DNA of 64,000 nt from Yinghuangia soli (GTDB taxonomy: Bacteria > Actinomycetota > Actinomycetes > Streptomycetales > Streptomycetaceae), in contig NZ_JAKFHA010000024.1 of assembly GCF_021502675.1 (NCBI RefSeq), positions 1 to 64,000 on the forward strand. The letters run 5' to 3'. Under the pieces are notes generated by a model. It had not been told where the DNA came from, did not search any database, and saw nothing but the letters and a program-made list of their open reading frames with translations. Both the position numbers and the translations under genes were made by a program. This document shows positions 44,602-64,000 of this stretch, piece after piece (positions within the stretch are counted from its first letter, which is position 1; each line of letters begins with the position of its first letter).

Positions 44602-45085
<484 letters not shown>

Positions 45086-45124
45086 TAGCGAGTCTTGGTC
45101 GGCGAAGCGGGCAGCCTCACACGG

Positions 45125-46985: not shown

Positions 46986-47052
46986 TCCGTCCCGCCCGCC
47001 CCGCAGGAGGAGCGTCGGGATTCCCCCGAGAGCACAGCGCGGAGGCAAAGGA

Positions 47053-47256: not shown

Positions 47257-47350
47257 ACAACCGCGGCGCTCGGCTTCGGCGGGTCCGGCGGTATCCAGTG
47301 GGGAGCCGGCGCCGCAGGGACGACGTACCCCGGGGGATGCAGCGCGGCCC

Positions 47351-47710: not shown

Positions 47711-47824
47711 GTTGCCTCACAGAAGAGAGAAGAAGGCCGACCGGAGCGGGGAAGCGGCGGCAGAGGCCGGGAAGACCCCGCGACACGGCGCTCCCGACGG
47801 GATGCTTGCCACGCGGCTGCGTGG

Positions 47825-48217
47825 TCACACGACGGGTTCGGCACCGAAGGCCGCCATCTCGTGCCCGGCCAAGGCATCGTTCGTGTCGATGACGTCCTGG
47901 AGGCGGACGCGGTCCGTGTACGAGGGGCTGTCGCGTATGGCGGCCAGTTGGGCCCGCGTGACCACGCCGGTGCGCTGGTCGTCCTCGTCGCACAGGAACA
48001 GGTGATCGGAAAGGGCGCTGAACATCACTGACAACGCCACTTCGACGGTCATGTCGACGCTGACCCGCGGCCCGGACGTGCGCGAGAGACCGGCCCAGGA
48101 CACAGGATCATCCCTGTAGGCCGTCGGCCGTGCGGCAGGCGGTGACATGCGCACGGCTGTCAAAGGTGCCGCCTCGGCTTCGGACGCCGACGCGGGCCTT
48201 CCAGGGCTCAGGCGCAT
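47825..48217 (-). CDS. CBS-domain-like protein coupled to the helicase
   Basis: This 130-residue protein has one CBS-like unit: VSVDMTVEVALSVMFSALSD, then HLFLCDEDDQRTGVVTRAQL and the helix SYTDRVRLQDVID. CBS domains usually come in pairs and bind adenine nucleotides, so this may be a half unit that dimerises. Its ATG overlaps the helicase stop as TGATG, a classic coupling signal. The first 40 residues are low-complexity; a start at 48148 (MSPPAARP) would remove most of them. Confidence 0.65.
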   Translation of the reverse strand: MRLSPGRPASASEAEAAPLTAVRMSPPAARPTAYRDDPVSWAGLSRTSGPRVSVDMTVEVALSVMFSALSDHLFLCDEDDQRTGVVTRAQLAAIRDSPSYTDRVRLQDVIDTNDALAGHEMAAFGAEPVV

Positions 48218-49752: not shown

Positions 49753-49974
49753 ACGGAACCTTCCTTGATGCGGCGCGCGCCAAGGAATTCCCGCGGCAGG
49801 AAGCCGGGAGGGGGAATTGCAGGGACGAGCCGAAATAGTTCGTCGGAGACGGGCCCACATGGCCGACCGGTCCGCGGGTCCAGAAAATCGGAAAGGGATA
49901 CCACCCGGGCCGGGTCCCGGAAATTCGGGCGCGGCGGCGTGGCGATGCACGGCCTGCGGGCACCCGAACAGCAA

Positions 49975-50009
49975 GCCGGGGCCCGCACCCCAAAGGTGCG
50001 GGCCCCGGC
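49975..50009 (-). terminator. Perfect 15-bp hairpin after the cold-shock gene
   Basis: Arms GCCGGGGCCCGCACC (49975-49989) and GGTGCGGGCCCCGGC (49995-50009) with a CCAAA loop, 20 bases after the cold-shock stop. It separates the cold-shock gene from the helicase gene downstream on the same strand and would act as a strong terminator or attenuator. Confidence 0.85.
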
Positions 50010-50028
50010 TGCGAAGTACGCGAAGGCG

Positions 50029-50232
50029 TCAGGCGGTAACGATGTTCTCGGCGGTCGGGCCCTTCTGGCCCTGCGCGATGTCGAAGGTCACCTTCTGGCC
50101 TTCCTGGAGCTCACGGAAGCCCTGGGCGGCGATGTTCGAGAAGTGGGCGAAGACATCGGGCCCACCGCCGTCCTGCTCGATGAAGCCGAAGCCTTTTTCC
50201 GCATTGAACCACTTGACGGTACCGGAAGCCAT
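50029..50232 (-). CDS. cspA: CspA-type cold-shock protein
   Basis: This 67-residue OB-fold protein binds single-stranded nucleic acids. RNP1 (KGFGFIEQ) and RNP2 (VFAHFSNI) are intact, and the start [20 protein letters not shown] is that of streptomycete CspA/SC7.0-like proteins. The ribosome site AAGGAGAT is very strong. Together with the DEAD-box helicase and MerR-like gene it forms the cold-response block. Expression is likely controlled at RNA level by its leader. Confidence 0.95.
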
Positions 50233-50599
50233 GTCAGATCTCCTTGAAAGGGGCAGGGCCCGGAGCCCGCACCATGCGGACCCCGCGTCGCCGCGATGAT
50301 CGCCCCACCGGAGATTTCCGGACCTATGAAAGCACGTCACACCGGGACAGCACGGTGGAAGTACTCGAAGATTTTGGGAACCACAACTGCAACTGGAATT
50401 GACAGTAGCACGTTGCCGCCGAGTTACCGAAACGAGTTGACTCGCTCGGCTTGCCGCGAAAGAAATTCCTGTCACGCACCGCGGATAATTCTCACCCCGC
50501 AACCGCAGATTTTCCTTGTGCTCGGGCTCAAGGTCTCCACCCGGCGCATCGCCGTGCAGGCGGTCATCGGCGTGGGTTGAGCCCTGCTCCTCACTGCAG
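50233..50599 (-). promoter_or_regulatory. Leader and promoter region of the cold-shock gene
   Basis: About 370 bases without a gene and noticeably richer in A/T than the surroundings at 50.33-50.52 kb. Small hairpins lie at 50267-50279 (CCGCA/TGCGG) and 50308-50321 (CCGGA/TCCGG) in the presumed leader. A promoter for the minus-strand cspA gene should lie here, but I could not fix its boxes. The right end merges into the integrase remnant. Confidence 0.5.
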
Positions 50600-51116
50600 A
50601 CTCCGGCGCACGGCTGTTCGTCGTGGCGAACACCTGGGCCGACTTCCTCCGCTCCCAAGCCGACGCCATCCTGGCGTGCGACTTCATCGAGACCGTCACC
50701 CTGACCGGCGGACCCAGTACATCCTCGCCGTGATCGAGCACGCCACCCGCCGGATCCGGATCCTGAGCACCACCGCCCACCCCACGGCTGGGTCGCCCAG
50801 GCGATCCGCAACCTGGCCATGGACCTGGAAGACGCGGGCACCACCGCCAAATTCCTCATCCGCGATCGAGACGACAAGTTCCTCGCCCTCGCCGACGAGA
50901 TCCTCGCGGATGCCGGCATCCGCGGCATCTCCTCAACGCGCTCCGCGAGTTCGAACCGCACTACAACGGACATCGCCCACACCGAACGCTTCAACAGGCA
51001 GCGCCGCTCCGCACGCTGCCCGCGCCGATCGCCGATCCCGAGCGCATCGCGCACCTCGACATACACCGACACGACCGACTCGCGGAACTCTCCGCGAATA
51101 CCGGCATGCCGCTTGA
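50600..51116 (+). pseudogene. Frameshifted IS481/IS3-type integrase remnant
   Basis: Consecutive blocks of one integrase appear in changing frames: [20 protein letters not shown] (50.64 kb), [20 protein letters not shown] (50.72 kb), [20 protein letters not shown] (50.81 kb) with [20 protein letters not shown], then [20 protein letters not shown] (50.93 kb), and the typical end LREYRHAA at 51116. At least three frameshifts and loss of the N-terminal part rule out function. It is a relative of the 3.5-kb remnant, which shares the QYILAVIEH and RRIR blocks. Up to 51266 nothing else is recognisable. Confidence 0.75.
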
Positions 51117-51266
51117 CCTGCACGGACGCGATTATCGGCACCCACAGGGTCCCGTCCGTCGTCGGGGGTCACCAGAGCAGGCCCCGACGCCGTTGCGGCG
51201 CGGGACGCCGCACGCGTCCCCACGCTGCCCTCGAGGTCCGCGGACCGACAAGGTTGCAGCGGGTGC

Positions 51267-51782
51267 TCACTGCGCGGACGTGCTCGAATCCCGGGCGAGG
51301 AAGGCGCGGTAGGCGTCGGCGACGTTGTCGAGGTAGCGCTGCGCGCCGGCTCGCTCTGCGGGCGAGAGGTCTGCCGAGGCCTCGGCCAGCAGCGCGAACA
51401 GCGGCAGGAGCTCGCCCATGACGTGGCGGCGGCCGCTGCCGGTGACGCCGAGCAGTTGGCGGCGGCCGTCGCCGGTGTGGCGGACGCGCGTCAGGTGGCC
51501 TTCGCCGACCAGCCGGTTGACGGTCTGGGTGGCGGCCGCCGACGTCACGCCCAGTCGGCGTGCGAGCTCGCCCGGACCGAGCGTCTCGCCGGCTCGCCCG
51601 GCCATCATCACGTGCTCCATCGCCTCCACGTCGGTGGCCGGCATCTGCAAGGCGCGGCCCAAAGAGACCCGGACGAGGGAGGTCAGCGTCAGCACGTCGC
51701 GGAGGGAGCGCGACAGTTCGTCGTTCGGCCCCCGCGTCTCGTCGGCGGGTTCCTGATGCTCCCGCCTCTTTTCTTGCGCCAT
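51267..51782 (-). CDS. MarR-family repressor
   Basis: This 171-residue winged-helix regulator has ETLGPGELARRLGVTSAAAT followed by QTVNRLVGEGHLTRVRHTGDGRR, which is the MarR recognition helix and wing. The C-terminal helices for dimerisation (LPLFALLAEASADLSPAERA) are present. It is divergent from the MMPL transporter gene, with an inverted repeat between the two starts. The usual logic would be repression of the pump until a lipophilic compound binds. The ligand is unknown. Confidence 0.9.
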   Translation of the reverse strand: MAQEKRREHQEPADETRGPNDELSRSLRDVLTLTSLVRVSLGRALQMPATDVEAMEHVMMAGRAGETLGPGELARRLGVTSAAATQTVNRLVGEGHLTRVRHTGDGRRQLLGVTGSGRRHVMGELLPLFALLAEASADLSPAERAGAQRYLDNVADAYRAFLARDSSTSAQ

Positions 51783-51804
51783 GGCGATCAGTCTGCCACG
51801 CTGG

Positions 51805-51827
51805 AATAGCTAAGCAACTTAACTATT
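51805..51827. promoter_or_regulatory. MarR operator between marR and MMPL genes
   Basis: Inverted repeat AATAGCTAAG (51805-51814) and CTTAACTATT (51818-51827) with a three-base centre and one mismatch. It is in the 60-base gap between the two divergent starts and is strikingly A/T-rich compared with its surroundings. The MMPL start lies only 15 bases after it. Confidence 0.75.
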
Positions 51828-51842
51828 TCCGTCGGAGTCGCG

Positions 51843-53957
51843 GTGCCTTCCCCTTCCTCGCTCCCTGCCCGCTCCGGCCGACATGATGCGAACACGTTCG
51901 AGCACGCAGAACCGGCACCGCGGCGGCGGTTCACGGCGTGGCTGGCCGTCCTGCTGGCCCTGGCCGCGGTCGGTGCCGCCTTTGCCTGGGGACCGAGCGA
52001 ATCAGAGGGGGGCGGGGACCGGTCGTCGGCGCCGTCAGCCTCGCAGGCGGGCCGGGTCGCCCAAGCGCTCCGGGAGCAGCCGGCCGGCGTCTTCGTCCCC
52101 GCCATCGTGGTCTTCAGCCGCGGCGACGGCGCAGCGCTCGACGGCGCCGACCGGGCCGCCGTCGCCGACCGGGCCGCCGGACTGAGGCCGCTTTCGGCCG
52201 ACGGGGCCGCCGAGGCGGACTTCGCCGGCGACAAGGTCGCCACGGTCGCGGTCGCGCTGCCGGCGCAACTGGAGGACGAGCAGCGTGACAGCCTCGTCGC
52301 GGCCGTCAGGCAGACGGCTTCGGCCGACCTGCCCGGCGGGTTGAGGGCACAGGTCACCGGCGGCCCCGCCTACGCGGCCGACCTGTCCAAGGTGTTCGAC
52401 GGCGCGGACACCACCCTGCTCATCGCCACCGCATCGGTGGTCGCGCTGCTTCTCCTGGTCACCTACCGCAGCCCCTTCCTCTGGCTGGTGCCGCTGACCG
52501 TGGTCGCCGTCGCCGACCGCTTTGCCGCCATCGCGGTCAGCCGACTGGCCGGACCGGCAGGCATCGACATCGACGGGTCGGCCGCCGGCATCACTTCCGT
52601 GCTGGTGTTCGGCGCCGGGACCAACTACGCACTCCTGCTCGTGGCGCGCTACCGCGACGAACTCCGCAGTGAGTCCGACCGGTTCGCGGCCATGCAACGT
52701 GCGGTACGCCGGACCGCGCCGGCGGTGATCGCCAGCGGGACCACCGTGGTGCTGAGCCTGTCGACTCTGCTCGCCGCCGACCTCACGTCCAACCGCGGCA
52801 TCGGCTTCGGCGGGGCGGTCGGGGTGCTCGTCGCCATGGTGTTCGGCCTCGTGGTCCTGCCGGCTTGCCTGGTCCTTCCGCGCCGCGGACTGTTCTGGCC
52901 GTTCGTCCCGATTCCGGGCGACCGGGTCGCGGCCGACCGCGAGGGGCTGTGGGCCCGCCTCGGCCGGTTTGTGGCGCGCCGCCCGAAGGCGACTGCCGTC
53001 GCGTGCGTCGGCCTGCTCGCGGTGTGCGCCGCCGGACTTCTTGGCGCCTCCACCGGACTCGCCCAGAACGACGCGTTCCGCGACACTCCCGAATCCGTAC
53101 GCGGCCAGCGCACCCTCGAGTCCGTCCTCCCGGCCGGAGCCGCGACGCCGCTGACCCTGCTGTCGGCGCCTCCCTCCGGAGAAGCCGCAGCCGCCGCGGC
53201 ACGCGGCGTGGACGGCGTCGTATCGGTCTCGCCCCCGCAGACCACCGGAACCTACGCACGTTCCCGCATCGTGCTGGCCGCAGCTCCGGGCACTTCCGCT
53301 TCGGACCGCACCATCGAGCGGCTGCGGGACCGGCTGGCCGGGCTTCCCGAAGCCGATGCGCTGGTCGGCGGAACGACGGCAGAGGCCTACGACGTGGACC
53401 AGGCCGTCGCGCGCGACACCCGAGTAATCGTGCCCATGATCCTGCTCATCGTGCTGGCGGTACTGGTATTCCTGCTCCGTGCCCTGCTCGGCCCGATCCT
53501 CCTCGTGCTCACCGTGATCGCCTCGTATTTCGCGGCCCTGGGCGCCAGTTGGCTCGTCTTCGAGCACCTGTACGGCTTCCCCGCTCTCGACAGCACCGTC
53601 CCGCTGCTGTCGTTCATCTTCCTGGTCGCGCTCGGCGTCGACTACAACATCTTCCTCATCGCCCGCACCCGGGAGGACACGGAAGAAGGCCGTGACACGC
53701 GGACCGCCGTCCTGCGTGCCCTCGCGTCGACCGGCGGCGTGATCACGAGCGCGGGAATCCTGCTCGCCGCGGTTTTCACCGTGCTGGGCGTGCTGCCGTT
53801 GATCACGCTGACCCAGATCGGCGTCATCGTGTGTGTGGGCGTGCTGATCGACACGCTGATGGTCCGGAGCGTCCTGGTCCCGGCTCTGGTCCTGCTGACC
53901 GGGGAACGTTTCTGGTGGCCCAGGGCAACCGGAAGTCCGCTTCGCCGCAAAGCCTGA
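51843..53957 (+). CDS. MMPL/RND-family membrane transporter
   Basis: This 704-residue transporter has the 1 + 5 + 1 + 5 helix layout of actinobacterial MMPL proteins, with two periplasmic domains (about residues 60-180 and 400-515). The proton-relay region is visible around FGAGTNYALLLVARYRDE and, in the second half, FLVALGVDYNIFLIARTRED. Such proteins export lipids, siderophores or drugs. GTG 51843 has a GGAG site. The adjacent MarR gene and operator indicate induction by a substrate. No gene for a lipid synthesis enzyme is adjacent. Confidence 0.92.
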   Translation: MPSPSSLPARSGRHDANTFEHAEPAPRRRFTAWLAVLLALAAVGAAFAWGPSESEGGGDRSSAPSASQAGRVAQALREQPAGVFVPAIVVFSRGDGAALDGADRAAVADRAAGLRPLSADGAAEADFAGDKVATVAVALPAQLEDEQRDSLVAAVRQTASADLPGGLRAQVTGGPAYAADLSKVFDGADTTLLIATASVVALLLLVTYRSPFLWLVPLTVVAVADRFAAIAVSRLAGPAGIDIDGSAAGITSVLVFGAGTNYALLLVARYRDELRSESDRFAAMQRAVRRTAPAVIASGTTVVLSLSTLLAADLTSNRGIGFGGAVGVLVAMVFGLVVLPACLVLPRRGLFWPFVPIPGDRVAADREGLWARLGRFVARRPKATAVACVGLLAVCAAGLLGASTGLAQNDAFRDTPESVRGQRTLESVLPAGAATPLTLLSAPPSGEAAAAAARGVDGVVSVSPPQTTGTYARSRIVLAAAPGTSASDRTIERLRDRLAGLPEADALVGGTTAEAYDVDQAVARDTRVIVPMILLIVLAVLVFLLRALLGPILLVLTVIASYFAALGASWLVFEHLYGFPALDSTVPLLSFIFLVALGVDYNIFLIARTREDTEEGRDTRTAVLRALASTGGVITSAGILLAAVFTVLGVLPLITLTQIGVIVCVGVLIDTLMVRSVLVPALVLLTGERFWWPRATGSPLRRKA

Positions 53958-54008
53958 AGCCGCCTCGGGCAACAACCAGGGCACTGCCCTGCGGTACGGC
54001 GCCGGACG

Positions 54009-54340
54009 TCAGTACGCGTGGAAGCCCCGTCCGGTTTTGCGGCCGAGCTGGCCGGCTTGGACCATCCGAAGGAGCAATGGCGGTGCGGCGTAGAGGGGTT
54101 CCTTGAACTCCTCGTACATGGACTCCGCGATGGCGTTCAACGTGTCCAGGCCGATGAGGTCAGCCAGGCGCAGCGGGCCGAGGGGGTGGGCGCAGCCGAG
54201 CACCATGCCGTCGTCGATGTCGTCAGCGGACGCGAAGCCGGATTCGAGCATGCGGACAGCCGAGAGCAGGTAGGGCACGAGCAGCGCATTGACGACGAAC
54301 CCGGCGCGGTCCTGCGACCGGATGACCTCGGGTCCTGTCC
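54009..54340 (-). pseudogene. C-terminal half of a 3-hydroxyacyl-CoA dehydrogenase
   Basis: The minus-strand frame ends with a complete C-terminal dimerisation domain of the 3-hydroxybutyryl-CoA dehydrogenase family: VIRSQDRAGFVVNALLVPYL, GMVLGCAHPLGPLRLADLIG and the terminal LGRKTGRGFHAY. The N-terminal NAD-binding Rossmann domain of about 180 residues is missing; before residue VIRSQ only low-complexity sequence follows. The stop is at the normal position. This is a truncated gene, possibly removed by the same event that placed the hairpin region at 54.4 kb. Confidence 0.75.
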
Positions 54341-54454
54341 GGTGCGCCGTGGGCGCGGAAGTAGGGGGAGCGAGCGCGGCGGGGTGCGACAGCGTCGCGC
54401 CCCGCCGCGCGGTGCACCGGCGGCCGGGCTCGTGCCCCCGGCGGGCGGTGCTGT

Positions 54455-54494
54455 TCCGCCGGATGGGCCACGGGTGGGTGGCCCATCCGGCGGA
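54455..54494. terminator. Perfect 17-bp hairpin
   Basis: Arms 54455-54471 and 54478-54494 pair perfectly over 17 bases with a six-base loop (GGGTGG). It lies 33 bases after the amidohydrolase stop on the minus strand and separates that operon from the truncated dehydrogenase. No T run follows. Confidence 0.75.
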
Positions 54495-54526
54495 GCCTGC
54501 GGTGGGGTGGCGGGCCGCTGCGGACC

Positions 54527-55150
54527 TCAGCCGCGGCCGAGGTTCCGGAGGGCCTCGGCGAGGCTGACGACGTCGGCGTACTTGGCGTCGAGGTCCAGCA
54601 GGTTGGCTTCCTGCAGCCGCGGGTCGCGGTCTCCGCAGGCATCGGCCACCACCATCGGCCGGAAGCCGTGCTGGAGGGCGTCGGTCGCCGAGGCCCGGAC
54701 ACACCCGCTGGTGGTCAGCCCGCAGATGTAGAGCGTGTCGATACCCCAGGTGCGCAGCGTGGAGGCGAGGGACGTTCCGAAGAAGGCGCTGGCGTACTGC
54801 TTGACCACCACGACATCCCCGTCGCGCGGCGCTGGGTCGACGGCGAACGCACCGAGCGGGCCGTCTCCTTCGAAGAGCGCGAGGGCCGGCACCTTGCGCC
54901 GGAACAGCCCCCCGTCCGCGCCTCCGGGCGTCAGGCGCACGGTCGTGAAGACGACGGGCACGTCGGCATCGCGGGCGGCCGAGACCAGTTCGGCGGCTGC
55001 CCGGACGGCATCGTCGACGGGAGCCCGCAGGATCGACCCGTCGTCCAGGTAGGCGCGGACGATGTCGACGACGAGGACGGCCGGCGAGTTCCCCGGTCCC
55101 AGCCTCGCGGCGAAGCCGGACGCGAGGTAATCGGCGCGGAGGTCGGTCAT
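54527..55150 (-). CDS. N-carbamoylsarcosine amidase-like hydrolase (isochorismatase family)
   Basis: This 207-residue cysteine hydrolase has catalytic Asp in VVDIVRAYLDD, Lys in VVVKQYASAFFGT and the nucleophile Cys in GLTTSGCVRASATDALQHGF. The TTSGCVR motif and the end RLQEANLLDLDAKYADVV fit N-carbamoylsarcosine amidases and maleamate amidases. Next to HyuA and HyuB, an N-carbamoyl amino acid product of hydantoin opening would be the logical substrate, giving sarcosine or an amino acid plus ammonia and CO2. This assignment is inference from context. It overlaps the HyuB stop by four bases. Confidence 0.85.
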   Translation of the reverse strand: MTDLRADYLASGFAARLGPGNSPAVLVVDIVRAYLDDGSILRAPVDDAVRAAAELVSAARDADVPVVFTTVRLTPGGADGGLFRRKVPALALFEGDGPLGAFAVDPAPRDGDVVVVKQYASAFFGTSLASTLRTWGIDTLYICGLTTSGCVRASATDALQHGFRPMVVADACGDRDPRLQEANLLDLDAKYADVVSLAEALRNLGRG

Positions 55151-57033
55151 GCGGTCACCGTCCTGACGTCGACCGGAGGAGCGGGCGCCGGCAGGCCGGT
55201 CTCCGCAAGGCAGCGATCGAGGATAGTCGCCAGCGGCGGACCCATGTCGAACAGCGGCGGCTCGCCGCGCTCCTCGGTGAGGCGGGCGCGGAGTTCGCGG
55301 GTGCGGTCGGCGTCGACTGCACCGTCGGGGTCGCACACCACGCCGTAGCCGTCCCGGGCACCTTCGACCGTCACCAGCCCGCGGCGGACCTCGAGGCCCA
55401 CCAGGTCGGTCGGGCGCTGGTACGGGTCGCCCCAGCCCCCGCCGCCCCAGGTGACGAAGTGCAGCACATCCCCTGGAGCGACCGGGATGTCATGGCACTT
55501 GCTGGGGAGGATCCGCACGGTTCCGTCGGGGTGTTCGAGCCACTTGCGCCCGCGGGCGCCGGGGCGGCCGCCGTTGACCCCCCACGGGTAGGTCAGCCAC
55601 CGGTCGTCGTGGATGGCGATCGTGCCGGGCTCGGCGAAGCGGTAGGCGACGTCGACGGCGTTTCCGCCGCGGCGGAGCCCGGCACCGCCGGAGTCGGCGA
55701 CGGTGTCCCAGCGCTCGATGCGCAGCGGGTAGTAGGCCTCGAGGTACTCGCAGGGGATGTTGACGAAGGACGGCCAGAGGGAGTGGCCGTCCGGCCCGTC
55801 GCCGATCGGTCGGCCGGGGATCCCGCCGAATCCGATCGAGTACAGCTGGAACCACTCCCCTGCTTGTTCGCCGGCGGTGCGGTAGCCGGAGTACATGAAG
55901 TGCGGGGAGGACGAGAAGCCGGCGGCGTTGAGGATTGCGGGATTCTTCTGGCCCAGCAGCCCGCCGAAGAGGTCGAAGACCCGCCCGATGCCGTGGTTGC
56001 GGGCGTTGAGCGCCGCGGGCCTGCGCGGCTTCCAGAAGGAGTCTTCGGGGATGGTCACGTCGATGAGCGGATAGAAGCCGTCGTTCCAGAGGATCTGCGG
56101 ATCGGCGACGGTGATGACGTAGATGCCGAAGAACATCCGTACGAGGTTCTCGTTGATGTAGTAGTTGACGGGGCCGACGGCCTGCGGCGCGGCCTTCCCG
56201 AAGTCCAGGTGGATCTTCTCGCCATGGCGGGTGAGGGCGATCGTCAGCTCGTAGGGGCCGTATCCGCAGCCGTCGTCGCAGATCCAGTCGGTGAACTCGA
56301 GCGTCTCGCCGTCCTCGAACAAGGTGGCCAGCAGGGCCTTCATGGCCTGGTAGTTGCGCTCCAAGAGGGCATCGAGCGCGGACAGGTAGACCTCGACGCC
56401 GAAGCGCTCGCAGAGCTCGGAGATCCGCCGGGAGGCGGTGCGGCAGGCGGCGACGAGCCCGTTGAGGTCGGCCCGGTTCCAGTCGGGCATACGGACCTGG
56501 TTGAGGATGACGGCAAGCGCGTCCTCGTTGAGGTCGCCGGCGTCGTACAGCTTGAACGGCGGTATGACGACGCCCTCTTCGTAGATGGTCCGGGCGTCGG
56601 ACGGCATCGACGAGGGTGTCTTGCCGCCCACGTCGGCCATGTGACCGAACATCGAGGCCCAGCCGACAAGGCGGCCTTGGTGGAAGATGGGCAGGACCAC
56701 CAGCCAGTCGTTGGCATGGCTGATCGCCGCGCCGCAGGCGTAGGGGTCGGAGGTCAGGAGGACGTCGCCTTCGCCTATCGTGCCGCCGAATCCGTCGAGG
56801 AAGTCCGGGACGGACAGCCCGAACTGACCGACGACCATGCGCCCTTCGGGATCCGCGATGAGCGGGAACTCGTCGTGCTGTTCGCGGATACCCGGGGACA
56901 GCGCCGTACGGAAGAGGACCTCGTCCATCTCGTGGCGGGCATTGCGCAGCGCGTTCTCGATGATGTCCAGGGTGACCGGGTCGACCGGCACCGCGGCCAC
57001 GGGAGCGGTGTTGCTCTGGATGATGGTGGCCAC
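55147..57033 (-). CDS. hyuB: Hydantoinase/oxoprolinase subunit B
   Basis: This 628-residue HyuB-type subunit has typical blocks VDPVTLDIIENALRNARHEM, then EGDVLLTSDPYACGAAISHA, MFGHMADVGGKTPSSMP and SGGAGLRRGGNAVDVAYRF. With HyuA it forms an ATP-dependent cyclic amidase (hydantoin, N-methylhydantoin or 5-oxoproline) or, in related enzymes, a carboxylase for ketones. GTG 57033 lies two bases after the HyuA stop with a GGGAG site inside the HyuA end. It is intact and of usual length. Confidence 0.9.
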   Translation of the reverse strand: MATIIQSNTAPVAAVPVDPVTLDIIENALRNARHEMDEVLFRTALSPGIREQHDEFPLIADPEGRMVVGQFGLSVPDFLDGFGGTIGEGDVLLTSDPYACGAAISHANDWLVVLPIFHQGRLVGWASMFGHMADVGGKTPSSMPSDARTIYEEGVVIPPFKLYDAGDLNEDALAVILNQVRMPDWNRADLNGLVAACRTASRRISELCERFGVEVYLSALDALLERNYQAMKALLATLFEDGETLEFTDWICDDGCGYGPYELTIALTRHGEKIHLDFGKAAPQAVGPVNYYINENLVRMFFGIYVITVADPQILWNDGFYPLIDVTIPEDSFWKPRRPAALNARNHGIGRVFDLFGGLLGQKNPAILNAAGFSSSPHFMYSGYRTAGEQAGEWFQLYSIGFGGIPGRPIGDGPDGHSLWPSFVNIPCEYLEAYYPLRIERWDTVADSGGAGLRRGGNAVDVAYRFAEPGTIAIHDDRWLTYPWGVNGGRPGARGRKWLEHPDGTVRILPSKCHDIPVAPGDVLHFVTWGGGGWGDPYQRPTDLVGLEVRRGLVTVEGARDGYGVVCDPDGAVDADRTRELRARLTEERGEPPLFDMGPPLATILDRCLAETGLPAPAPPVDVRTVTA

Positions 57034-57035
57034 GG

Positions 57036-59138
57036 CTACTCCCTGGCGTCGGCGGTGTCGGTGGGGTCGAAGCCGGCGGGCGCCGCGGCGGGGCGGATCA
57101 GCAGGCAGCCTCCGGCGTCGACCGTGGCGGTGTGCCCGGGGAGGACGAGCGTGGTGGAGTCCATCTCGGTGACGATGGCCGGCCCCGGGACCACGTTGCC
57201 GGCCTGGAGCTTGTCCCGGTCGTAGACGGCCGCACGGGTGTACGCGCCGTCCGCCCACACTTCGGTCTCGCGGACGAAGGCGCCGCCGGGGTCGGTGCCG
57301 CCGGCCGCCAGCGCGCGTCCGGCGATGTTCGGACGCGGGCCGGTGACGGCCACCCGCAGGTTGATGATCTCCTTTTCGTTGCGCAGGAGGAAGGAGAACA
57401 GCCGCTCGTGCTCGACGTCGAAGGCCTCGCCGACTGCGGCCAGGAGGTCGTCCGCCTTGAGCATGGCGTCCGTGAGAGTGACCGGGATTTCGAACCCTTG
57501 GCCGTGGTAGCGCACGTCGATCTCGTGGACGGTGTGCTGGAGGGCGCGCGGCACGCCGTCCGCGGCCAGCCGGGTGCCGGCCGCATCGGCGAGTTCGGCG
57601 AGCAGGGCGCGCAGGTCGTCGGAATCCAGCATGGAGAATCGCCGCACCACGGTGCGGGCCGCCTCGCTACGGGGGCTGGTGGTCGCGTCGCCGTAGGCGC
57701 AGAGGACTCCCGGAGACGGCGGCACGATGACCGGCCAGGCACCGGTCAGCTTGCCGAGCGCGTTGGCGTGCAGCGGGCCCGCGCCGCCGAAGGCGACCAG
57801 GGCGAAGTCGCGCGGGTCGTAGCCCTGTTGGACGCTGACCAGGCGCAGCGCGCCGAACATGTTCTCGTTGACAATGTCGACGATGCCCGCGGCGGCGGCC
57901 TCGACGGATTCCAGCCCCATCGCGTCGGCGACCTCGGCCACCGCGCGGCGGGCGGCCTTCCGGTCGAGGGTGATCTCGCCGCCGGCGAGTTCGTCCGGCA
58001 GGTAGCCGAGGACCACGTTGGCGTCCGTGACGGTCGGCGCGGTCCCGCCGTGCCCGTAGGCTGCCGGACCGGGGCTGGCTCCGGCCGATTGCGGGCCGAC
58101 GCGCAGGGCCTTGGTGAGTTCGGGGACGTGGGCGATGGAACCGCCGCCTGCGCCGACGGTGCGCACGTCCACGCTGGACGCGCGGACGTTGAGGTCGCCC
58201 ACCGTTGTGTCGCGGCCGATCCGCGGCGTGCCGTCGAGGACCAGGGCGACGTCGGTGGACGTTCCGCCCATGTCGAAGGTGAGCAGGTCTCGGTAGCCCG
58301 CCTGTTCGGCGAACCACACGGCGCCGGTGACACCGCCTGCCGGTCCGGACAACAGGAGCGCCACGGGATCCTGGGCTGCCTTGTCGGCGGAGGTCAGGCC
58401 GCCGTCGCTGCGCAGGATCGACAGCGGCGCCTCGATCCCGCTGTCCCGCAGGGCCGCGTCGAGGTTGCGGACGTAGCGGGCGACTTCGGGCTGTACGTAG
58501 CTGTTGGCGACGGTGGTGATCGTGCGTTCGTACTCGCGCATCTCCGGGAGGACCTGGCTCGACAGCGAGACGGGTACCCCGGGGATCTCGTCGGCGGCCA
58601 ACGCGGCCAGGGCCTTCTCGTGAGAGTCGTCGGCGTACGAGTTGACCAGCGCGATGGTCAGGGCTTCGATGCCGGACGCGGCCAGCCGCCGCAGTGCCCG
58701 GCGCGCCGAGTCGACGTCGAGGGGTTCGACTTCCCGGCCGTCCGCGGCTATGCGCCCGGCGACCTCCACGGTGTGCTCCAAGGCCGCCAGGGGCTCGGGT
58801 TTGGGCCAGACGATCCAGCCCGCCAGGCCTCCGGGCACGTAGGAGCGGGCGATTTGCAGGATCTGCCGGAAGCCCGCCGTGGTGACGAGTCCGACCCGCG
58901 CGCCGCGGCCCTCGAGGATCGCGTTGGTGGCGACGGTCGTGCCGTGCAGGACCTGGTCGACCTCGGCGAGGGGGATCCCGGCCTCGCCGCACGCCTTGCG
59001 GATGCCTGCCAGGACGCCCTCGGACTGATCGCGAGGCGTGGTCGGTGTCTTCGCGCGGAAGGTGGCGCCGGTGGCCTGGTCGACGAGGAGCACGTCGGTG
59101 AACGTGCCTCCGACGTCGACGCCGAGGCGGTATCCCAT
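57036..59138 (-). CDS. hyuA: Hydantoinase/oxoprolinase subunit A (ATP-binding)
   Basis: This 700-residue HyuA-type subunit has the ASKHA ATPase phosphate-1 motif GVDVGGTFTDVLLVD, LHGTTVATNAILEGRGARVG, the LSGPAGGVTGAVWF and TFDMGGTSTDVALV loops and the FGGAGPLHANALG motif. It supplies ATP-driven phosphorylation of the cyclic amide for opening. The family includes N-methylhydantoinases (EC 3.5.2.14), 5-oxoprolinases and acetone carboxylase subunits, which cannot be separated by motif. ATG 59138 has a GGAGAACC site. It follows the CoA transferase gene by 68 bases. Confidence 0.92.
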   Translation of the reverse strand: MGYRLGVDVGGTFTDVLLVDQATGATFRAKTPTTPRDQSEGVLAGIRKACGEAGIPLAEVDQVLHGTTVATNAILEGRGARVGLVTTAGFRQILQIARSYVPGGLAGWIVWPKPEPLAALEHTVEVAGRIAADGREVEPLDVDSARRALRRLAASGIEALTIALVNSYADDSHEKALAALAADEIPGVPVSLSSQVLPEMREYERTITTVANSYVQPEVARYVRNLDAALRDSGIEAPLSILRSDGGLTSADKAAQDPVALLLSGPAGGVTGAVWFAEQAGYRDLLTFDMGGTSTDVALVLDGTPRIGRDTTVGDLNVRASSVDVRTVGAGGGSIAHVPELTKALRVGPQSAGASPGPAAYGHGGTAPTVTDANVVLGYLPDELAGGEITLDRKAARRAVAEVADAMGLESVEAAAAGIVDIVNENMFGALRLVSVQQGYDPRDFALVAFGGAGPLHANALGKLTGAWPVIVPPSPGVLCAYGDATTSPRSEAARTVVRRFSMLDSDDLRALLAELADAAGTRLAADGVPRALQHTVHEIDVRYHGQGFEIPVTLTDAMLKADDLLAAVGEAFDVEHERLFSFLLRNEKEIINLRVAVTGPRPNIAGRALAAGGTDPGGAFVRETEVWADGAYTRAAVYDRDKLQAGNVVPGPAIVTEMDSTTLVLPGHTATVDAGGCLLIRPAAAPAGFDPTDTADARE

Positions 59139-59206
59139 GGGGTTCTCCGGGGGTGGGGCGGCGCCCGGGACGGTCGGGCGGCCGCACGGGCGGATCGTGT
59201 GGGGTG

Positions 59207-60439
59207 TCAGACGACGCCGCGGGCGGCCAGGTCGTCGAGCTGGGCCGCCGTGAGGCCGAGCAGGTCTCGGTACACGTGGTCGTTGTGCTGCCCCAGTTCC
59301 GGCCCGAGGTGCCGGACGCGGCCGGGTGTGGCGCTGAGCTTCGGGAAGACGTTGTGCAGGGGGAACTCGCCGAGTTCCGGGTGCATGAGCTTGACGATCG
59401 CCTCGCGGGCCGCGAAGTGCGGGTCGGCGAACATGTCCTTGGCGGTGTAGATGCGTCCCGCCGGGACTCCTGCCTCGTTCAGTGTCGTCAGCAGGTCCTC
59501 TGCGGCGTGCTGCGCGGTCCACTCGGCGATGATGCCGTCCAGGTCCTCCATGTTCGCGCCGCGCGCGGCATGGCCGGCGTACCGGTCGTCGGCCGCCAGG
59601 TCGGGGCGGTTCATGGCCGCGGCGAGCCGGGTGAAGACGGTGTCTTGGTTGGCGGCGATCAGGATCATGTCGCCGCCCTTGGCCGGGTACACGTTGCTCG
59701 GCGAGACGTTCGGCAGGACCGGTCCGGTGCGTTCGCGCTGGTATCCGCCGATCGCCCATTCGGGCAGCAGCGACTCCATCATGCCCAGGACGGCTTCGTA
59801 GATGGCCGAGTCGACGACCTGTCCCTGGCCCGTCCGTTCGCGGTGGTGGAGGGCGGACAGGGCGCCGATGGCGGCGAAGACCGCGGCAAGCGCGTCGCCG
59901 ATCGAAATGCCGGTGCGCGAGGGGTTCTTGTCGGGGTCGCCGGTGATGCGCCGCAGGCCGCCCATGGCCTCGCCGATGGACCCGTAGCCCGCCTGGGGCG
60001 CGTAGGGTCCGGTCTGGCCGAAGCCGGTGACCCGGACCACGATCAGTCCGGGATTGGTGCGGGCGAGGTCCGCCGGGTCCAGTCCCCAGCGTTCCAGGGT
60101 GCCGGGCCTGAAGTTCTCGACGAGGATGTCGGCGCCGTCGATGATCTGCCGGGCCAGCCGCTGGCCTTCCGGGTCCCGCAGGTTGCAGGTCACCGACATC
60201 TTGTTGCGCGCGACGACCGGCCACCACAGCGACTTGCCATAGGGGCGTTCGCGGCCCCACTGCCGCATCGGGTCGCCGGTCCCCGGCGGTTCGAGCTTGA
60301 TCACGTCGGCGCCGAAGTCGCCGAGCAGTTGTCCGCAGAACGGGCCGGCGAGAAGCTGGCCCATTTCGACCACGCGCAGCCCGGCAAGGGGACCGCTCGG
60401 TTCCTCCGCACTGCGCGGGGACGGGTCAGTGGTGTTCAT
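59207..60439 (-). CDS. CaiB/BaiF-type (class III) CoA transferase
   Basis: This 410-residue CoA transferase has the N-terminal GLRVVEMGQLLAGPFCGQLL and GDFGADVIKLEPPGTGDPMR, the catalytic Asp in SRTGISIGDALAAVFA and the C-terminal AARGANMEDLDGIIAEWT. Class III transferases move CoA between carboxylic acids. The gene overlaps the GntR stop by four bases. Pairing of such a transferase with an HMG-CoA-lyase-like enzyme, divergent at 61.2 kb, is common in pathways where an acid is activated and then cleaved. The acid is not known. Confidence 0.92.
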   Translation of the reverse strand: MNTTDPSPRSAEEPSGPLAGLRVVEMGQLLAGPFCGQLLGDFGADVIKLEPPGTGDPMRQWGRERPYGKSLWWPVVARNKMSVTCNLRDPEGQRLARQIIDGADILVENFRPGTLERWGLDPADLARTNPGLIVVRVTGFGQTGPYAPQAGYGSIGEAMGGLRRITGDPDKNPSRTGISIGDALAAVFAAIGALSALHHRERTGQGQVVDSAIYEAVLGMMESLLPEWAIGGYQRERTGPVLPNVSPSNVYPAKGGDMILIAANQDTVFTRLAAAMNRPDLAADDRYAGHAARGANMEDLDGIIAEWTAQHAAEDLLTTLNEAGVPAGRIYTAKDMFADPHFAAREAIVKLMHPELGEFPLHNVFPKLSATPGRVRHLGPELGQHNDHVYRDLLGLTAAQLDDLAARGVV

Positions 60440-61143
60440 CGGGGCTCCGGGATCGAGTCAGGAACGAAGTGGGTCGGCGGGTGTTCTGCCGGCTGTCCGG
60501 CCGGGTGTTCGCGGGTCCGCATAAGTACGTCTTTCGCCGCGGCGATGTGTGCGGTCATCACCGCACGGGCCCAGCGCCCGTCCTTCGCCCGGAAGGCCTG
60601 GACGAGTTCGCGGTGATGCGCGCAGCTGCGCCGCAAGTCCTCGGGGCTGTAGCGGTGGTAGGTGCTCAGGACCAGCGGTACGCGGACCACGGAGCGCAGG
60701 ACAGCGGCCAGGCGCCGGCTGCTTGCCGCCGCCTGAATGCAGTCGTGGAAGTCGGCGTTGATCCGGGCCACCGCCTCCAGGTCGGGCTGCGCCCGGCGCG
60801 CCTGCTGTTCGAGCTGGTCCGCCAGTCCGGCGAGGCGGACCAGGTCCTCCTCGCCGACGCGGGTGGCGGCGCGCTCGGCGGCGTGGGCTTCCAGTTCGCT
60901 CCGCAGGTCATAGAGCTCCTCCAGATCGTGCGGAGTCCAGTCGGTGACGCGGGCGCCCTTGTGGGGCGCGGTATCCACGAGGCCTTCGGCGGCCAGGCGC
61001 CGCAGCGCCTCCCGGACAGGTGTCCGGGAGGCGTTCAGCTCCTCGGCGAGACCGGTCTCCGTGAGCCGGGATCCGCCGCGGCGGGAGCCGTCGAGGATGC
61101 CGGCGCGAAGGGCTTCGTACACGCGGTCCGCGGCACGGTCCAT
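60436..61143 (-). CDS. GntR-family regulator, FadR/FCD type, first gene of the Hyu operon
   Basis: This 235-residue regulator has the N-terminal winged helix DRVYEALRAGILDGS, LTETGLAEELNASRTPVREA and RRLAAEGLVDTAPHKGARV, then an FCD ligand domain (LYDLRSELEAHAAERAATRV, INADFHDCIQAAASSRRLAA) with metal-binding His residues. It probably represses its own operon and the divergent lyase gene through TTGTATGCAA sites. It is about 40% similar in pattern to the second GntR at 62183, from which it differs in the C-terminal tail. Confidence 0.9.
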   Translation of the reverse strand: MDRAADRVYEALRAGILDGSRRGGSRLTETGLAEELNASRTPVREALRRLAAEGLVDTAPHKGARVTDWTPHDLEELYDLRSELEAHAAERAATRVGEEDLVRLAGLADQLEQQARRAQPDLEAVARINADFHDCIQAAASSRRLAAVLRSVVRVPLVLSTYHRYSPEDLRRSCAHHRELVQAFRAKDGRWARAVMTAHIAAAKDVLMRTREHPAGQPAEHPPTHFVPDSIPEPR

Positions 61144-61162
61144 CCGGCACCCCCTTGCCGAG

Positions 61163-61257
61163 TTGTATGCAACTTAGGCTCGCCGCTTGCCTTGACACAA
61201 GACTTTGGCAGGGAAATTCTCATAGGAGCACGTGAAGATGCCTCATATTGCATACGA
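61163..61257. promoter_or_regulatory. GntR operators and promoter between the Hyu operon and the lyase gene
   Basis: Two FadR-type half-palindromes are present: TTGTATGCAA (61163-61172), which is near perfect, and TTGCATACGA (61248-61257), inside the start of the lyase gene. A TTGACA box (61192-61197) is followed at 17 bases by AATTCT (61215-61220), a weak -10 candidate for the lyase gene. The spacing of 85 bases between the two sites would allow one regulator to control both directions. Confidence 0.65.
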
Positions 61258-62161
61258 TCTGGAGGGCCGGATGGAGATCCTCGAAGTGGGACCGCGCGAC
61301 GGGCTGCAGAACGAGCCGGTGGTCCTGGCGGTCGCGGACAAGGTCGAGCTGATCGCGCGGGCAGTCGCCGCGGGTGCGCGGCGGGTCGAGGCGGTGAGCT
61401 TCGTCAACCCCAAGCTGGTCCCGCAGATGGCGGACGCCGCGGAGGTCATGGCCGAAGTCCCCCGGCAGGAGGGGGTCTCCTACAGCGGACTGGTGCTCAA
61501 CCCTCGCGGCCTTGACCGGGCCCTCGCGGCCGGGGTGGACGAAGTGAACGTCGTCGTGGTGGCCACCGAGACGTTCAGCCGGCGCAACCAGAACCGCGGC
61601 GTCGACGACATGTTGGCGGCGTGGGCGCAGATCGCCGGCGACGCCCGAGCGGCAGGGGCGCGCACCACGGTGACGATCGCGGCTGCGTTCGGCTGCCCGT
61701 TCGAGGGCGAAGTCGCCGCCGAGCGCGTGCTGGACATCGCGCGCCGCGCGGCCGAGGCGGGGCCGTACGAGATCGCCCTGGCCGACACGATCGGCGTGGG
61801 CACACCGGACCGGGTCCGCGTCCTCCTCGACGGCCTCGCCGAGGCCGCCCCGGGCGTCCGGCGCCGCTGCCATTTCCACAACACACGGAACACCGGCTAT
61901 GCCAATGCCCTCACGGCTGTTGCCCTCGGCGTCGACACTCTGGACGCAAGCATCGGCGGCATCGGCGGATGTCCTTTCGCCCCCGCCGCGACCGGCAACA
62001 TCGCCACCGAGGACCTGCTGTACGCCCTCGACCGGATGGGCGTGCCGACCGGCCTCGACCTCGCCTCGGTGATCGCCGCGGCGGACTGGCTGGCCGGTCG
62101 CCTGGGCAAGGCGGTCCCTGCGCAGCTGGGCAGGGCGGGCGTGTTCCCGGCGACGGGCTGA
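61238..62161 (+). CDS. Hydroxymethylglutaryl-CoA lyase-like enzyme
   Basis: This 307-residue TIM-barrel lyase of the HMGL/DRE-TIM family begins EILEVGPRDGLQNEP, in which the Arg and Asp are catalytic and metal-binding. It continues with SFVNPKLVPQMADAAEVM, metal ligands in CHFHNTRNTGYANAL and the conserved GGIGGCPFAPAATGNIATED with the catalytic Cys. It cleaves 3-hydroxy-3-methylglutaryl-CoA or a related hydroxyacyl-CoA. ATG 61238 is nine bases after AGGAG, better than GTG 61232. Expression is probably controlled by the GntR operators in front. Confidence 0.9.
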   Translation: MPHIAYDLEGRMEILEVGPRDGLQNEPVVLAVADKVELIARAVAAGARRVEAVSFVNPKLVPQMADAAEVMAEVPRQEGVSYSGLVLNPRGLDRALAAGVDEVNVVVVATETFSRRNQNRGVDDMLAAWAQIAGDARAAGARTTVTIAAAFGCPFEGEVAAERVLDIARRAAEAGPYEIALADTIGVGTPDRVRVLLDGLAEAAPGVRRRCHFHNTRNTGYANALTAVALGVDTLDASIGGIGGCPFAPAATGNIATEDLLYALDRMGVPTGLDLASVIAAADWLAGRLGKAVPAQLGRAGVFPATG

Positions 62162-62182
62162 CCGGCTCGGCTGCTTCCGCGG

Positions 62183-62842
62183 TCAGACGTCGTCCGGCGT
62201 AGGCGGAAGAGATCGCAGAAGCGACGACTTGGCCGCCGCGACGTGCGCCCGCATGGCCGATTGCGCCCACCGCGCGTCACGGGCCTCCAAGGCGTCCACC
62301 AGGTCGCGGTGGTGTGCCGCGCTGCGGGCGAGCTCGGATTCGGCGTACCGGTGGAAGGTGGTCAGGACGAGCGGCATCTGCACGACCGCGCCCAGCATGG
62401 TGAGCAGGCGGGGACTGTCGGCGGCCGTACGGATCAGCATGTGGAACTCGGTGTTGAGACGGGCCAGGAGTTCCAGGTCGCGGTCCTCGCCGGGGGCCGC
62501 AGCGGCTTCCATGGCCGCGGACAGTTCGCGCAGCCGGGTGACGTCGGCGTCCGTGACCCTCGTCGCGGCGCGTTCGGCGGCGAAGGACTCCAGGATCAGC
62601 CGCAGATCGTAGATCTCCGCCACGTCCGCACGCGTCCAGTTCGTCACCCTGGCGCCGCGGTGCGGGGCGACCTCGACGAGGCCTTCGGCTTCGAGGCGGC
62701 GCAGAGCCTCCCGCACCGGGGTGCGGCTCGTGCCGGTGGCGTCCGCGAGTTCGGACTCGCCCAACCGCTCCCCCGGGCCGAAGCTCCCGTCCAGGATTCC
62801 GGCGCGCAGCACCTCGTATGCGTGATCCGCGGCACGGACCAT
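62183..62842 (-). CDS. GntR-family regulator, FadR/FCD type, second copy
   Basis: This 219-residue regulator has AYEVLRAGILDGSFGPGERL, ESELADATGTSRTPVREALR and an FCD domain with IYDLRLILESFAAERAATRV and LNTEFHMLIRTAADSPRLL. It is clearly a paralogue of the GntR gene at 60436: both share SRTPVREALRRL, EGLV-xx-APH-GARVT-WT and ER-AATRV. Both flank the lyase gene, which suggests a local duplication followed by specialisation. It is convergent with the lyase gene with a 21-base gap. Confidence 0.9.
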   Translation of the reverse strand: MVRAADHAYEVLRAGILDGSFGPGERLGESELADATGTSRTPVREALRRLEAEGLVEVAPHRGARVTNWTRADVAEIYDLRLILESFAAERAATRVTDADVTRLRELSAAMEAAAAPGEDRDLELLARLNTEFHMLIRTAADSPRLLTMLGAVVQMPLVLTTFHRYAESELARSAAHHRDLVDALEARDARWAQSAMRAHVAAAKSSLLRSLPPTPDDV

Positions 62843-63196
62843 GGTCGACCACCTCCGGCCTGCATGCTACGGAGTGCGCAAGGCTGCGCGGCGCTGCGGG
62901 ATGCGCCCGCGCGCCGCGCAGCCGGCCACGAAGGCAGCAGTGCGGCGCACCGCGCCGCCATTGGCCGTTCGCGACAGGTTCGCCGCACCCCGGCCACCGC
63001 CCCCGGCAAGCCGTATGGCCGAAGTCCTGCGGTGCGAATCCCTGCGGCATGACGGATCCTGCATGGCAGTCGCGTACGGCATGTTCCGCACAGCGGAAAG
63101 TCGTTGACACCTGAGGAACAGGCACGTGAATCTTCCGCAACCGGCTCAGGCCGTATCAACGAACTCCCCACGCACCTCAGCGGAAGGACGTCCTCA
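62843..63196 (+). promoter_or_regulatory. Intergenic region before the DUF1838 gene
   Basis: About 350 bases without a convincing gene on either strand. A TTGACA box at 63104-63109 is the best promoter candidate for the plus-strand gene, with only a poor -10 (GAATCT, 63128-63133). The left end should contain the second GntR promoter. Confidence 0.4.
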
Positions 63197-64000
63197 ATGG
63201 CGCGTCGACGCGCTCTTCGGAGCCGCATTGCCCGAGTGGCCGCACTATCGGCCTTTGCAGTGGCGGCCACAGTGCAGGGCTCGGCACAGGCCGGCGCCCC
63301 GCAAGACCCGACCGACCCGGGCACCCTGTTCAAAACGCTCCAGGACCCCAATGCGCGGCTCTTCCTTCAAACCCTCGGCCGTGCTGACGGCCAGGACATG
63401 GTCTACCGGATCAGCGGTTCCGTACTGAGCCAGGTCCGCGGCAACGCGTACGGACCGGCGCTTCCCCACGGGAAGGTGCTCTTCGGATTCGAGGGCTTCA
63501 ACATCCGCCAGCTCTACCGCAAGCCCGGCACCAATGACATCTACCAGTTGTCCCGGGAGATCGTCTTCTACACGGACCCCGCGACGGGCCAACGGCTCAC
63601 GGAGTGGACCAACCCGCTCGACGGCAAGACGCGCCCGCTGCCTCCGGTGGACAACGAGCACGTCAACGGGCACTACCGCATCAAGGACGGCAAGCTCTTC
63701 TCCGTCTTCGGCGGCACCGAGGTCCCGCTGACGAACGCCACGGCCCCGAAACAGATCCACGACCAACTCGTGTGGACCACAGACGCGCCTCCGCTGTACA
63801 GCCTCCAGCAGCGCTACCAGATCCCCGAGACGTTCGGCCTGACGAACAACTTGTACGCCTCGTGGGAGATGTTCGACTTCATCGTCGACCGCGACGAGGC
63901 CCGCCGCCACGACGACCGCAACCACGTGCCCAAGGGGGCCATGGAGGTCGTGAACTCGTGGACCCGCAACGGCCCTTACATCCCCGCCATGTGCATTCCG
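63197..64000 (+). CDS. Exported DUF1838-family protein (3' partial)
   Basis: The frame from ATG 63197 has no stop before the window edge (268 codons seen). It starts with a basic signal peptide (ARRRALRSRIARVAALSAFA, then Ala-rich core, cleavage probably after GSAQA). The mature part has the pattern of DUF1838 proteins: GKVLFGFEGFNIRQLYR, REIVFYTDPATGQRLTEWTN and NEHVNGHYR. The function of DUF1838 is unknown; members are often exported by Tat, but no twin-arginine consensus with the usual spacing is clear here. A GGAAGGAC site precedes the ATG. Confidence 0.85.
   Translation, partial: MARRRALRSRIARVAALSAFAVAATVQGSAQAGAPQDPTDPGTLFKTLQDPNARLFLQTLGRADGQDMVYRISGSVLSQVRGNAYGPALPHGKVLFGFEGFNIRQLYRKPGTNDIYQLSREIVFYTDPATGQRLTEWTNPLDGKTRPLPPVDNEHVNGHYRIKDGKLFSVFGGTEVPLTNATAPKQIHDQLVWTTDAPPLYSLQQRYQIPETFGLTNNLYASWEMFDFIVDRDEARRHDDRNHVPKGAMEVVNSWTRNGPYIPAMCIP

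Follow-up and report, generated by a model that had tools for sequence, protein, structure and literature searches.

A recurrent, apparently co-regulated gene module of Yinghuangia soli that joins an ATP-dependent cyclic amidohydrolase to an amidase and alternating C-C lyases

Hydantoinases and oxoprolinases are alpha-beta enzymes that couple the hydrolysis of a cyclic amide to the conversion of ATP to ADP, and they belong to a hydantoinase/ketone carboxylase family that turns a carbonyl into phosphoenol or phosphoimidate and in which the ketone carboxylases add a short subunit (PMC5214803). Here we describe a gene module that places an enzyme of this family, HyuAB, beside an isochorismatase-fold amidase, a class III coenzyme A (CoA) transferase (CoAT) and a C-C lyase of the hydroxymethylglutaryl-CoA (HMG-CoA) lyase family (HMGL). 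The module lies in a stretch of 64,000 nucleotides from Yinghuangia soli, the whole of which is hereafter called the window.

Several described systems share parts of this gene set. The creatinine pathway, through N-methylhydantoinase and N-carbamoylsarcosine amidohydrolase, likewise combines HyuA/HyuB homologues with an amidase that has this fold and the catalytic Asp, Lys and Cys, whereas the module adds a CoA transferase with a C-C lyase, or a lyase of the isocitrate-lyase/phosphoenolpyruvate (PEP)-mutase family (ICL), and no recurrent further gene family. Caprolactamase CapAB has HyuA/HyuB homologues in common with the module but, to our knowledge, needs no amidase, CoAT or lyase. In a branch of nicotinate fermentation, a LeuCD-type 2,3-dimethylmaleate hydratase is followed by an ICL/PEP-mutase-family dimethylmalate lyase acting on an alkylmalate; the same gene types occur in two loci studied here (L168 and L121), but we know of no HyuAB module in that branch, where other enzymes open the ring. 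Acetone and acetophenone carboxylases belong to the same superfamily and likewise activate a carbonyl with ATP (PMC5214803); they are carboxylating enzymes with an additional short subunit, however, for which the operon has no gene. In fungal nicotinate degradation, the imidase HxnM and then the amidase HxnN lead from an imide through a half-amide to a hydroxy-diacid, with the amidase releasing the nitrogen, as in the route proposed below; HxnM is, however, related to PuuE-type allantoinase, whereas the opener of the module is the ATP-dependent HyuAB, and the available portion of that account contains no CoA step or C-C lyase (PMC9304392). The window operon has HyuAB in this role, and a PuuE-like gene, below the model cut-off, lies near the plasmid locus L121.

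The genes, their catalytic residues, their conserved co-occurrence, a pair of palindromes and the exchange of lyases can all be read from the DNA itself, and we conclude that they make up a real, recurrent catabolic module, apparently co-regulated. The module is probably a new pathway; no description of the gene set was among the matches listed in searches, aimed at different points, of an open-access library that lacks most subscription papers. Our preferred reading, with a probability of about 0.5, is a dedicated catabolic operon for a cyclic amide, in which HyuAB would open the ring, the half-amide would be deaminated, and cleavage of an alkylmalate would yield a 2-oxoacid together with either an acyl-CoA or an acid. 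An earlier note on this DNA had suspected an undescribed cyclic-amide pathway linked to CoA chemistry, and that suspicion is supported by a linkage that is kept across phyla and appears co-regulated.

Operon genes and enzyme families

The window comprises positions 1–64000 of a 130.8-kb contig in a 9.7-Mb genome (G000), has a G+C content of about 72%, and the close relatives found for it are Actinomycetota. On its minus strand, genes for a GntR-type regulator, CoAT, hyuA, hyuB and the amidase run from 61143 to 54527 with intergenic gaps of −4 to +68 bp, and the HMGL gene diverges from them on the plus strand. The open frames of every named gene are intact, and the enzyme genes are arranged as the earlier note had described; its list lacked the GntR/FCD regulator that heads the same run (GntR1; 60436–61143, minus strand; PF00392, PF07729).

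The ATP-binding alpha subunit HyuA (57036–59138, minus strand) matches PF05378, PF01968 (301 bits) and PF19278, and its nearest solved structure is the N-methylhydantoinase 7hk5 (460 bits). The beta subunit HyuB (55147–57033, minus strand, GTG start) matches PF02538 with 466 bits and is the only match to this family in the genome. HyuA and HyuB domains are complete, and the operon consists of alpha and beta alone, with no short third subunit gene. Acetone-carboxylase-like activity of HyuAB, named by the earlier note as the finding that would speak against its proposal, is unlikely, as the operon holds no gamma subunit and acetophenone carboxylase models score far below their cut-offs (ApcC 325 of 1500 bits, ApcA 181 of 1250, ApcD 97 of 1500); this identity was rejected. 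So was caprolactamase, whose models score 513 and 198 bits against NCBIfam equivalog cut-offs of 1000.

The isochorismatase-fold amidase, a cysteine hydrolase proposed to act as a half-amidase releasing ammonia (54527–55150, minus strand; PF00857, 120.7 bits), has the catalytic residues D29, K117 and C150, which together with R175 are invariant in 99/99 family members, and its gene overlaps hyuB by a median of 4 bp in 69 neighbour pairs. It also keeps the arginine of the GDR motif, which in carbamoylsarcosine amidase binds a carboxylate near the scissile amide. The best solved match is N-carbamoylsarcosine amidohydrolase 26st (138 bits), in agreement with the label given by the earlier note; the specificity implied by that label is not secured, because the putative isochorismatase 3ot4, which we take to be the maleamate amidase NicF, follows closely with 121 bits.

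CoAT (59207–60439, minus strand; PF02515, 415 bits), the proposed activator of the released diacid, keeps its nucleophile D182 in 78/78 members, and no NCBIfam equivalog reaches its cut-off for this protein. HMGL (61232–62161, plus strand) has the expected fold (PF00682, 144 bits), exceeds its subfamily cut-off (NF004283, 326.7 bits against 246) and keeps the residues E, D, H, H, C and N in 68/68 members; a further R and D are kept in 58, the other 10 rows ending before them. The catalytic roles of these amidase, CoAT and HMGL residues are assumed by us from their families. A second HMGL copy in the genome (G000:C1:421063), 45% identical, stands among carboxylase-like and acyl-CoA-dehydrogenase-like genes, a neighbourhood read by eye; since this copy sits in an apparent leucine-degradation cluster, the operon HMGL would be free for another role, and a leucine-type HMG-CoA lyase role for it was set aside.

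Conservation of the gene set and alternation of lyases

Among 150 related genomes, the nearest HyuB relatives are found in G005 (87% identity) and G116 (79%) and the next best reaches 35%, a fall that marks the window HyuB as part of a distinct branch. G005 keeps HMGL, GntR, CoAT, hyuA, hyuB, the amidase, the second GntR and a DUF1838 gene. At least 80 loci with HyuB identity of 76% or more (76–83% among the matches listed) occur in species-representative genomes, and the module is also present on plasmids of Alphaproteobacteria, Geobacillus, Rubrobacter and haloarchaea. We assembled 113 loci with HyuB at about 45% identity or more, comprising the window (45001–64000), L033, L034, the 80 best-listed loci, 10 plasmid loci and 20 loci from a search of the phylum, the last drawn from 20 of the 29 other matching genomes; six haloarchaeal loci (L178–L183) are additional to these. 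Sixteen of 20 plasmid matches were examined (H3, H5, H6 and H8 were left out), the unannotated L119–L121 being read from our own gene calls, and L158 and L044, whose HyuB proteins are identical, were both counted. A gene was called present when tblastn gave a match at E ≤ 1e-20 covering at least half of a query.

By this uniform measure, hyuA is present in 112 of the 113 loci and the amidase in 99. As a control, 20 stretches of 18–20 kb around HyuAB relatives at 32–36% HyuB identity (20 of 30 more distant HyuB places) yielded amidase, HMGL, ICL, LeuC and LeuD in 0/20 each and a CoA transferase (33–41%) in six. When the genes of 83 stretches (the 80 best-listed loci and L032–L034) were clustered at 38% identity or more, no family outside hyuB, hyuA, GntR, amidase, CoAT, HMGL and ICL was found in more than nine. 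Transporters gave no shared clue to the substrate: Liv/Urt-type ATP-binding cassette (ABC) genes occur in G005, Rbs-type genes in L060 and L168, Opp-type genes on the window contig and major facilitator superfamily genes in Acidiphilium. Individual loci depart from the common pattern. At L167 (G784), no hyuA lies between hyuB and CoAT, and the HyuB match covers residues 243–625 only; this may reflect a partial deletion or a fusion of the two genes. Three control stretches (L188, L190 and L206) place HyuAB, at 33–36% HyuB identity, immediately before another class III CoA transferase and lack both amidase and lyase; they may encode a second pathway, of the lactam type.

The lyase content of the 113 loci falls into two main types, with CoAT and HMGL but no ICL in 65 loci and ICL without CoAT or HMGL in 26; three are mixed (L060, L082 and L121), ten have CoAT only, one has HMGL only and eight have none of the three. 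Twenty-six of the 29 ICL loci thus lack CoAT and 67 of the 68 HMGL loci have it, as expected if HMGL alone needs a CoA ester. The ICL proteins, which keep PK[KR]CGH in 29/29, resemble methylisocitrate and dimethylmalate lyases, their nearest solved structures including dimethylmalate lyase 3fa3 and the petal death protein 1zlp; they retain K[KR]CGH but miss the NCBIfam cut-off of 354 bits for the methylisocitrate lyase PrpB (L057 273, L082 270 and L180 227 bits). Gene order varies between lineages (HMGL< GntR> CoAT> A> B> iso> in 24 loci, ICL< GntR> A> B> iso> in 18 and GntR< CoAT> A> B> iso> HMGL> in 13, where A, B and iso stand for hyuA, hyuB and the amidase gene), so the set has been rearranged yet kept together. 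All seven haloarchaeal plasmid matches were examined: in four (Natronomonas, two Natronorubrum and Halorientalis) an ICL gene comes after HyuAB and the amidase, and in three (Haloterrigena and Haladaptatus, two of the three with identical HyuB) CoAT and a LeuA-type enzyme accompany them. The LeuA-type enzyme, of 363 aa, matches isopropylmalate, citramalate and homocitrate synthase models below their cut-offs. A HyuB tree of 47 rows (41 of the 113 loci and the six haloarchaeal ones) requires four switches between CoA type and ICL type, and its well-supported branches force at least three changes of the ICL label; another tree held 112 of the 113 loci, one row of less than 500 aa being left out.

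Seven of the 113 loci hold LeuC-type genes, six of them also LeuD, with L060 stopping at a contig end. They belong to Acidimicrobiaceae (L060 and L082), an uncultured actinobacterium (L092, in the order amidase, LeuC, LeuD) and G823 (L168), and to plasmids of Acidiphilium (L117), Novosphingobium (L121) and Geobacillus (L122). Two subtypes were seen among those scanned, LeuC-like proteins in L082, L092 and L121 and, in L168, a HacA/IPMI type with a small subunit of the LeuD/DmdB family.

Divergent promoters, regulators and neighbouring genes

Between HMGL and GntR1 the window holds a pair of palindromes resembling TTGYATRCAA, spaced by 85 bp: predicted operator 1 (TTGTATGCAA, 61163–61172), the only exact match in the genome, and predicted operator 2 (TTGCATACGA, 61248–61257), with one mismatch. 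Because the latter sits between the two candidate starts of HMGL, the ATG at 61271 is more likely than the GTG at 61232. The same 85-bp spacing is seen in G005 (L033, 15939 and 16024). In relatives the palindrome class is present in 45/45 divergent promoters, exact in 26/26 of the HMGL-GntR type and in 5/19 of the ICL-GntR type and in the looser form TTGYRYRCAA in 19/19 of the latter, compared with 0/9000 random windows from the same loci (about 3/9000 with a site at one mismatch), counts that come from mutually related loci and are not independent trials. In the third gene order, for which the random windows do not serve as control and which has none of its own, 18/18 GntR-CoAT promoters contain the motif, either exact or one mismatch away from it. 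Since palindrome class and promoter position are the same in both types, ICL takes the position of HMGL and apparently its control. A search of the whole genomes of G000 and G005 with the exact palindrome returned one site in each, at this locus, and no further target; the reversed control pattern gave 1 and 2 sites, so that the informative point is the location of the site and not its count. From these patterns the module appears to be under a local GntR switch and co-regulated.

A second GntR/FCD regulator (62183–62842, minus strand), a paralogue of GntR1 (126 of 218 aligned residues identical) and possibly a member of the system, lies beyond HMGL; G005 has a GntR/FCD gene in the corresponding position, and two GntR genes flank HMGL in G000 and G005 alike. 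The operon regulator of the seven Actinomadura loci resembles this second regulator (58–65%) more than it resembles GntR1 (56–59%). A DUF1838 gene adjoins the module (contig 63104–64234, plus strand) and has the same place in G005, and a DJ-1/AraC regulator stands close to the module in both genomes. Further right, contig C17 carries Opp-type ABC transporter genes and an allantoinase/dihydropyrimidinase-like amidohydrolase (64511–75338; L032:4511–15338). Directly 3' of the operon, 54009–54350 on the minus strand encodes the C-terminal third of a 3-hydroxybutyryl-CoA dehydrogenase (profile positions 176–286 of 287) without the half that binds nicotinamide adenine dinucleotide, and looks like a gene remnant; to its left are an MMPL-family transporter (51843–53957, plus strand) and a divergent MarR-family regulator (51267–51782, minus strand). 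Formamidase or acetamidase/formamidase genes lie near the module in the haloarchaeal plasmids L123 and L181.

Proposed pathway, alternatives and significance

In the route we propose, HyuAB would act on a cyclic amide, of which a five-membered imide is the likeliest kind, phosphorylating it with ATP and hydrolysing it to a half-amide, from which the isochorismatase-fold amidase would free ammonia to leave a diacid with a C4 backbone. If unsaturated, this diacid (an alkylmaleate) would be hydrated to a 2-alkylmalate by a LeuCD-type hydratase, encoded locally or elsewhere in the genome. The class III CoA transferase would then form an alkylmalyl-CoA, and HMGL would split it into a 2-oxoacid and an acyl-CoA, in the manner of citramalyl-CoA yielding pyruvate and acetyl-CoA; where an ICL/PEP-mutase-family lyase replaces HMGL, the free 2-alkylmalate would be cleaved directly, and the CoA transferase would be dispensable. 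HMGL, LeuA-type and ICL/PEP-mutase enzymes overlap on malates substituted at C2, and possibly at C3, and it is on account of this overlap that we infer an intermediate of the 2-alkylmalate type. Working backwards, if the amidase product is an alkylmalate, or an alkylmaleate where LeuCD is present, the ring would be the corresponding imide, which is the most likely substrate to judge from the genes. One candidate, 3-hydroxy-3-methylglutarimide, was set aside, as an ICL-type lyase presumably could not act on its product.

Several observations weigh against this reading. The module is patchy, with a match at E ≤ 1e-200 in the window's own genome alone among 391 of the same order and matches at E ≤ 1e-120 in 30/396 genomes of the phylum. 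No LeuC-type gene came to light in 106 of the 113 stretches, some of them short, and neither of the two aconitase-family large subunits of the window genome is on the contig of the module, so hydration here would be a housekeeping function or the substrate would already be hydroxylated. The amidase is absent from 14 loci, five of them cut by contig ends (L059, L065, L072, L081 and L168) and nine with full flanks (L085, L087, L096, L100, L102, L115, L118, L119 and L121), and its closest solved match is compatible with a hydantoin-type substrate too. The exact motif is present in only 5 of 19 ICL-type promoters, the others having TTGYRYRCAA. Actinobacterial ICL-only loci, L168 apart, group together (Shimodaira–Hasegawa-like approximate likelihood-ratio test, SH-aLRT, 91 in the tree of 112 loci), so that the actinobacterial swap to ICL may be a single event; the haloarchaeal fork is unsure in the 47-row tree, as is the placement of L168, L122 and L117 on long branches. 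Three loci carry both types (L082 and L121, and L060 with CoAT and ICL at a contig end), and strict interchangeability is consequently not proven. Finally, HyuAB of L115 and L118, 58–60% identical, adjoins a succinate-semialdehyde dehydrogenase gene without amidase, CoAT or lyase, a context in which members of this clade need not act on imides. The plasmids concerned, from Sphingomonas sp. JE1 (L115) and Sphingobium sp. TomTYG65 (L118), have very similar gene runs: a flavocytochrome-c-like enzyme containing flavin adenine dinucleotide (FAD), an FAD-binding oxidoreductase, a zinc-type dehydrogenase, HyuAB and the succinate-semialdehyde dehydrogenase.

The earlier note had placed at the core of the pathway a conversion of N-methylhydantoin to sarcosine, for which we find no support: no family from outside the module recurs in more than nine of the 83 clustered stretches (a count from clustering, without a profile search for sarcosine genes), and CoAT and the lyases would have no role if sarcosine were the product. 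More broadly, HyuAB might open a 5-substituted or N-methylated hydantoin, the amidase release CO2 and NH3 from the carbamoyl group, and the resulting amino acid be degraded through CoA chemistry. N-methylhydantoinase and N-carbamoylsarcosine amidohydrolase as best solved matches, and a gene annotated as the latter at the Novosphingobium capsulatum locus, are consistent with such a route, which we nevertheless hold to be possible but unlikely, since no aminotransferase, ammonia lyase or sarcosine oxidase family passes the same limit of nine neighbourhoods by clustering, no profile search having been made, and CoAT, HMGL, ICL and LeuCD would suit an oxygenated diacid rather than an amino acid.

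HyuAB could instead be a gamma-lactamase, like the one in the anaerobic degradation of indoleacetate, with CoAT activating a succinate-like product, the lyase cleaving a hydroxylated derivative and the amidase handling a side-chain amide. A gamma-lactamase of this family is named in indoleacetate metabolism (PMC5214803), three of the 20 control loci have distant HyuAB directly followed by a CoA transferase (L188, L190 and L206), and the JE1-type clusters include succinate-semialdehyde dehydrogenase; this would leave unexplained, however, both the amidase in 99 of the 113 loci and the substitution of ICL for CoAT plus HMGL, and we consider it improbable. It is still harder to believe that HMGL and CoAT serve to cleave HMG or citramalate of other origin and have only their regulation in common with the ring hydrolase. 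HMGL does exceed the HMG-CoA lyase subfamily cut-off and lies on its own promoter side in the window, and 18 of the 113 stretches, several of them short, have neither HMGL nor ICL; but HMGL and ICL share palindromes and position, rearranged gene orders keep the set together, and the set recurs on plasmids of Archaea, Bacillota and Alphaproteobacteria.

A tentative guess made at one locus gives way to a pathway signature in at least 80 loci of species-representative genomes and on plasmids of Bacteria and Archaea. The exchange of HMGL, LeuA-type and ICL enzymes within a single module restricts the likely intermediate to acids of the alkylmalate type, and the substrate thereby becomes searchable with a small assay panel. 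Annotated records examined label these genes 5-oxoprolinase, N-carbamoylsarcosine amidohydrolase, hydroxymethylglutaryl-CoA lyase and citramalate synthase, and such labels may direct users to the wrong metabolism. As a long shot, the module could be a pathway by which bacteria and archaea in general degrade alkylated maleimides or succinimides, for example the pyrrole-derived maleimides from the oxidation of chlorophyll or haem; if so, the pyrrole units of tetrapyrroles would return to central metabolism by this route.

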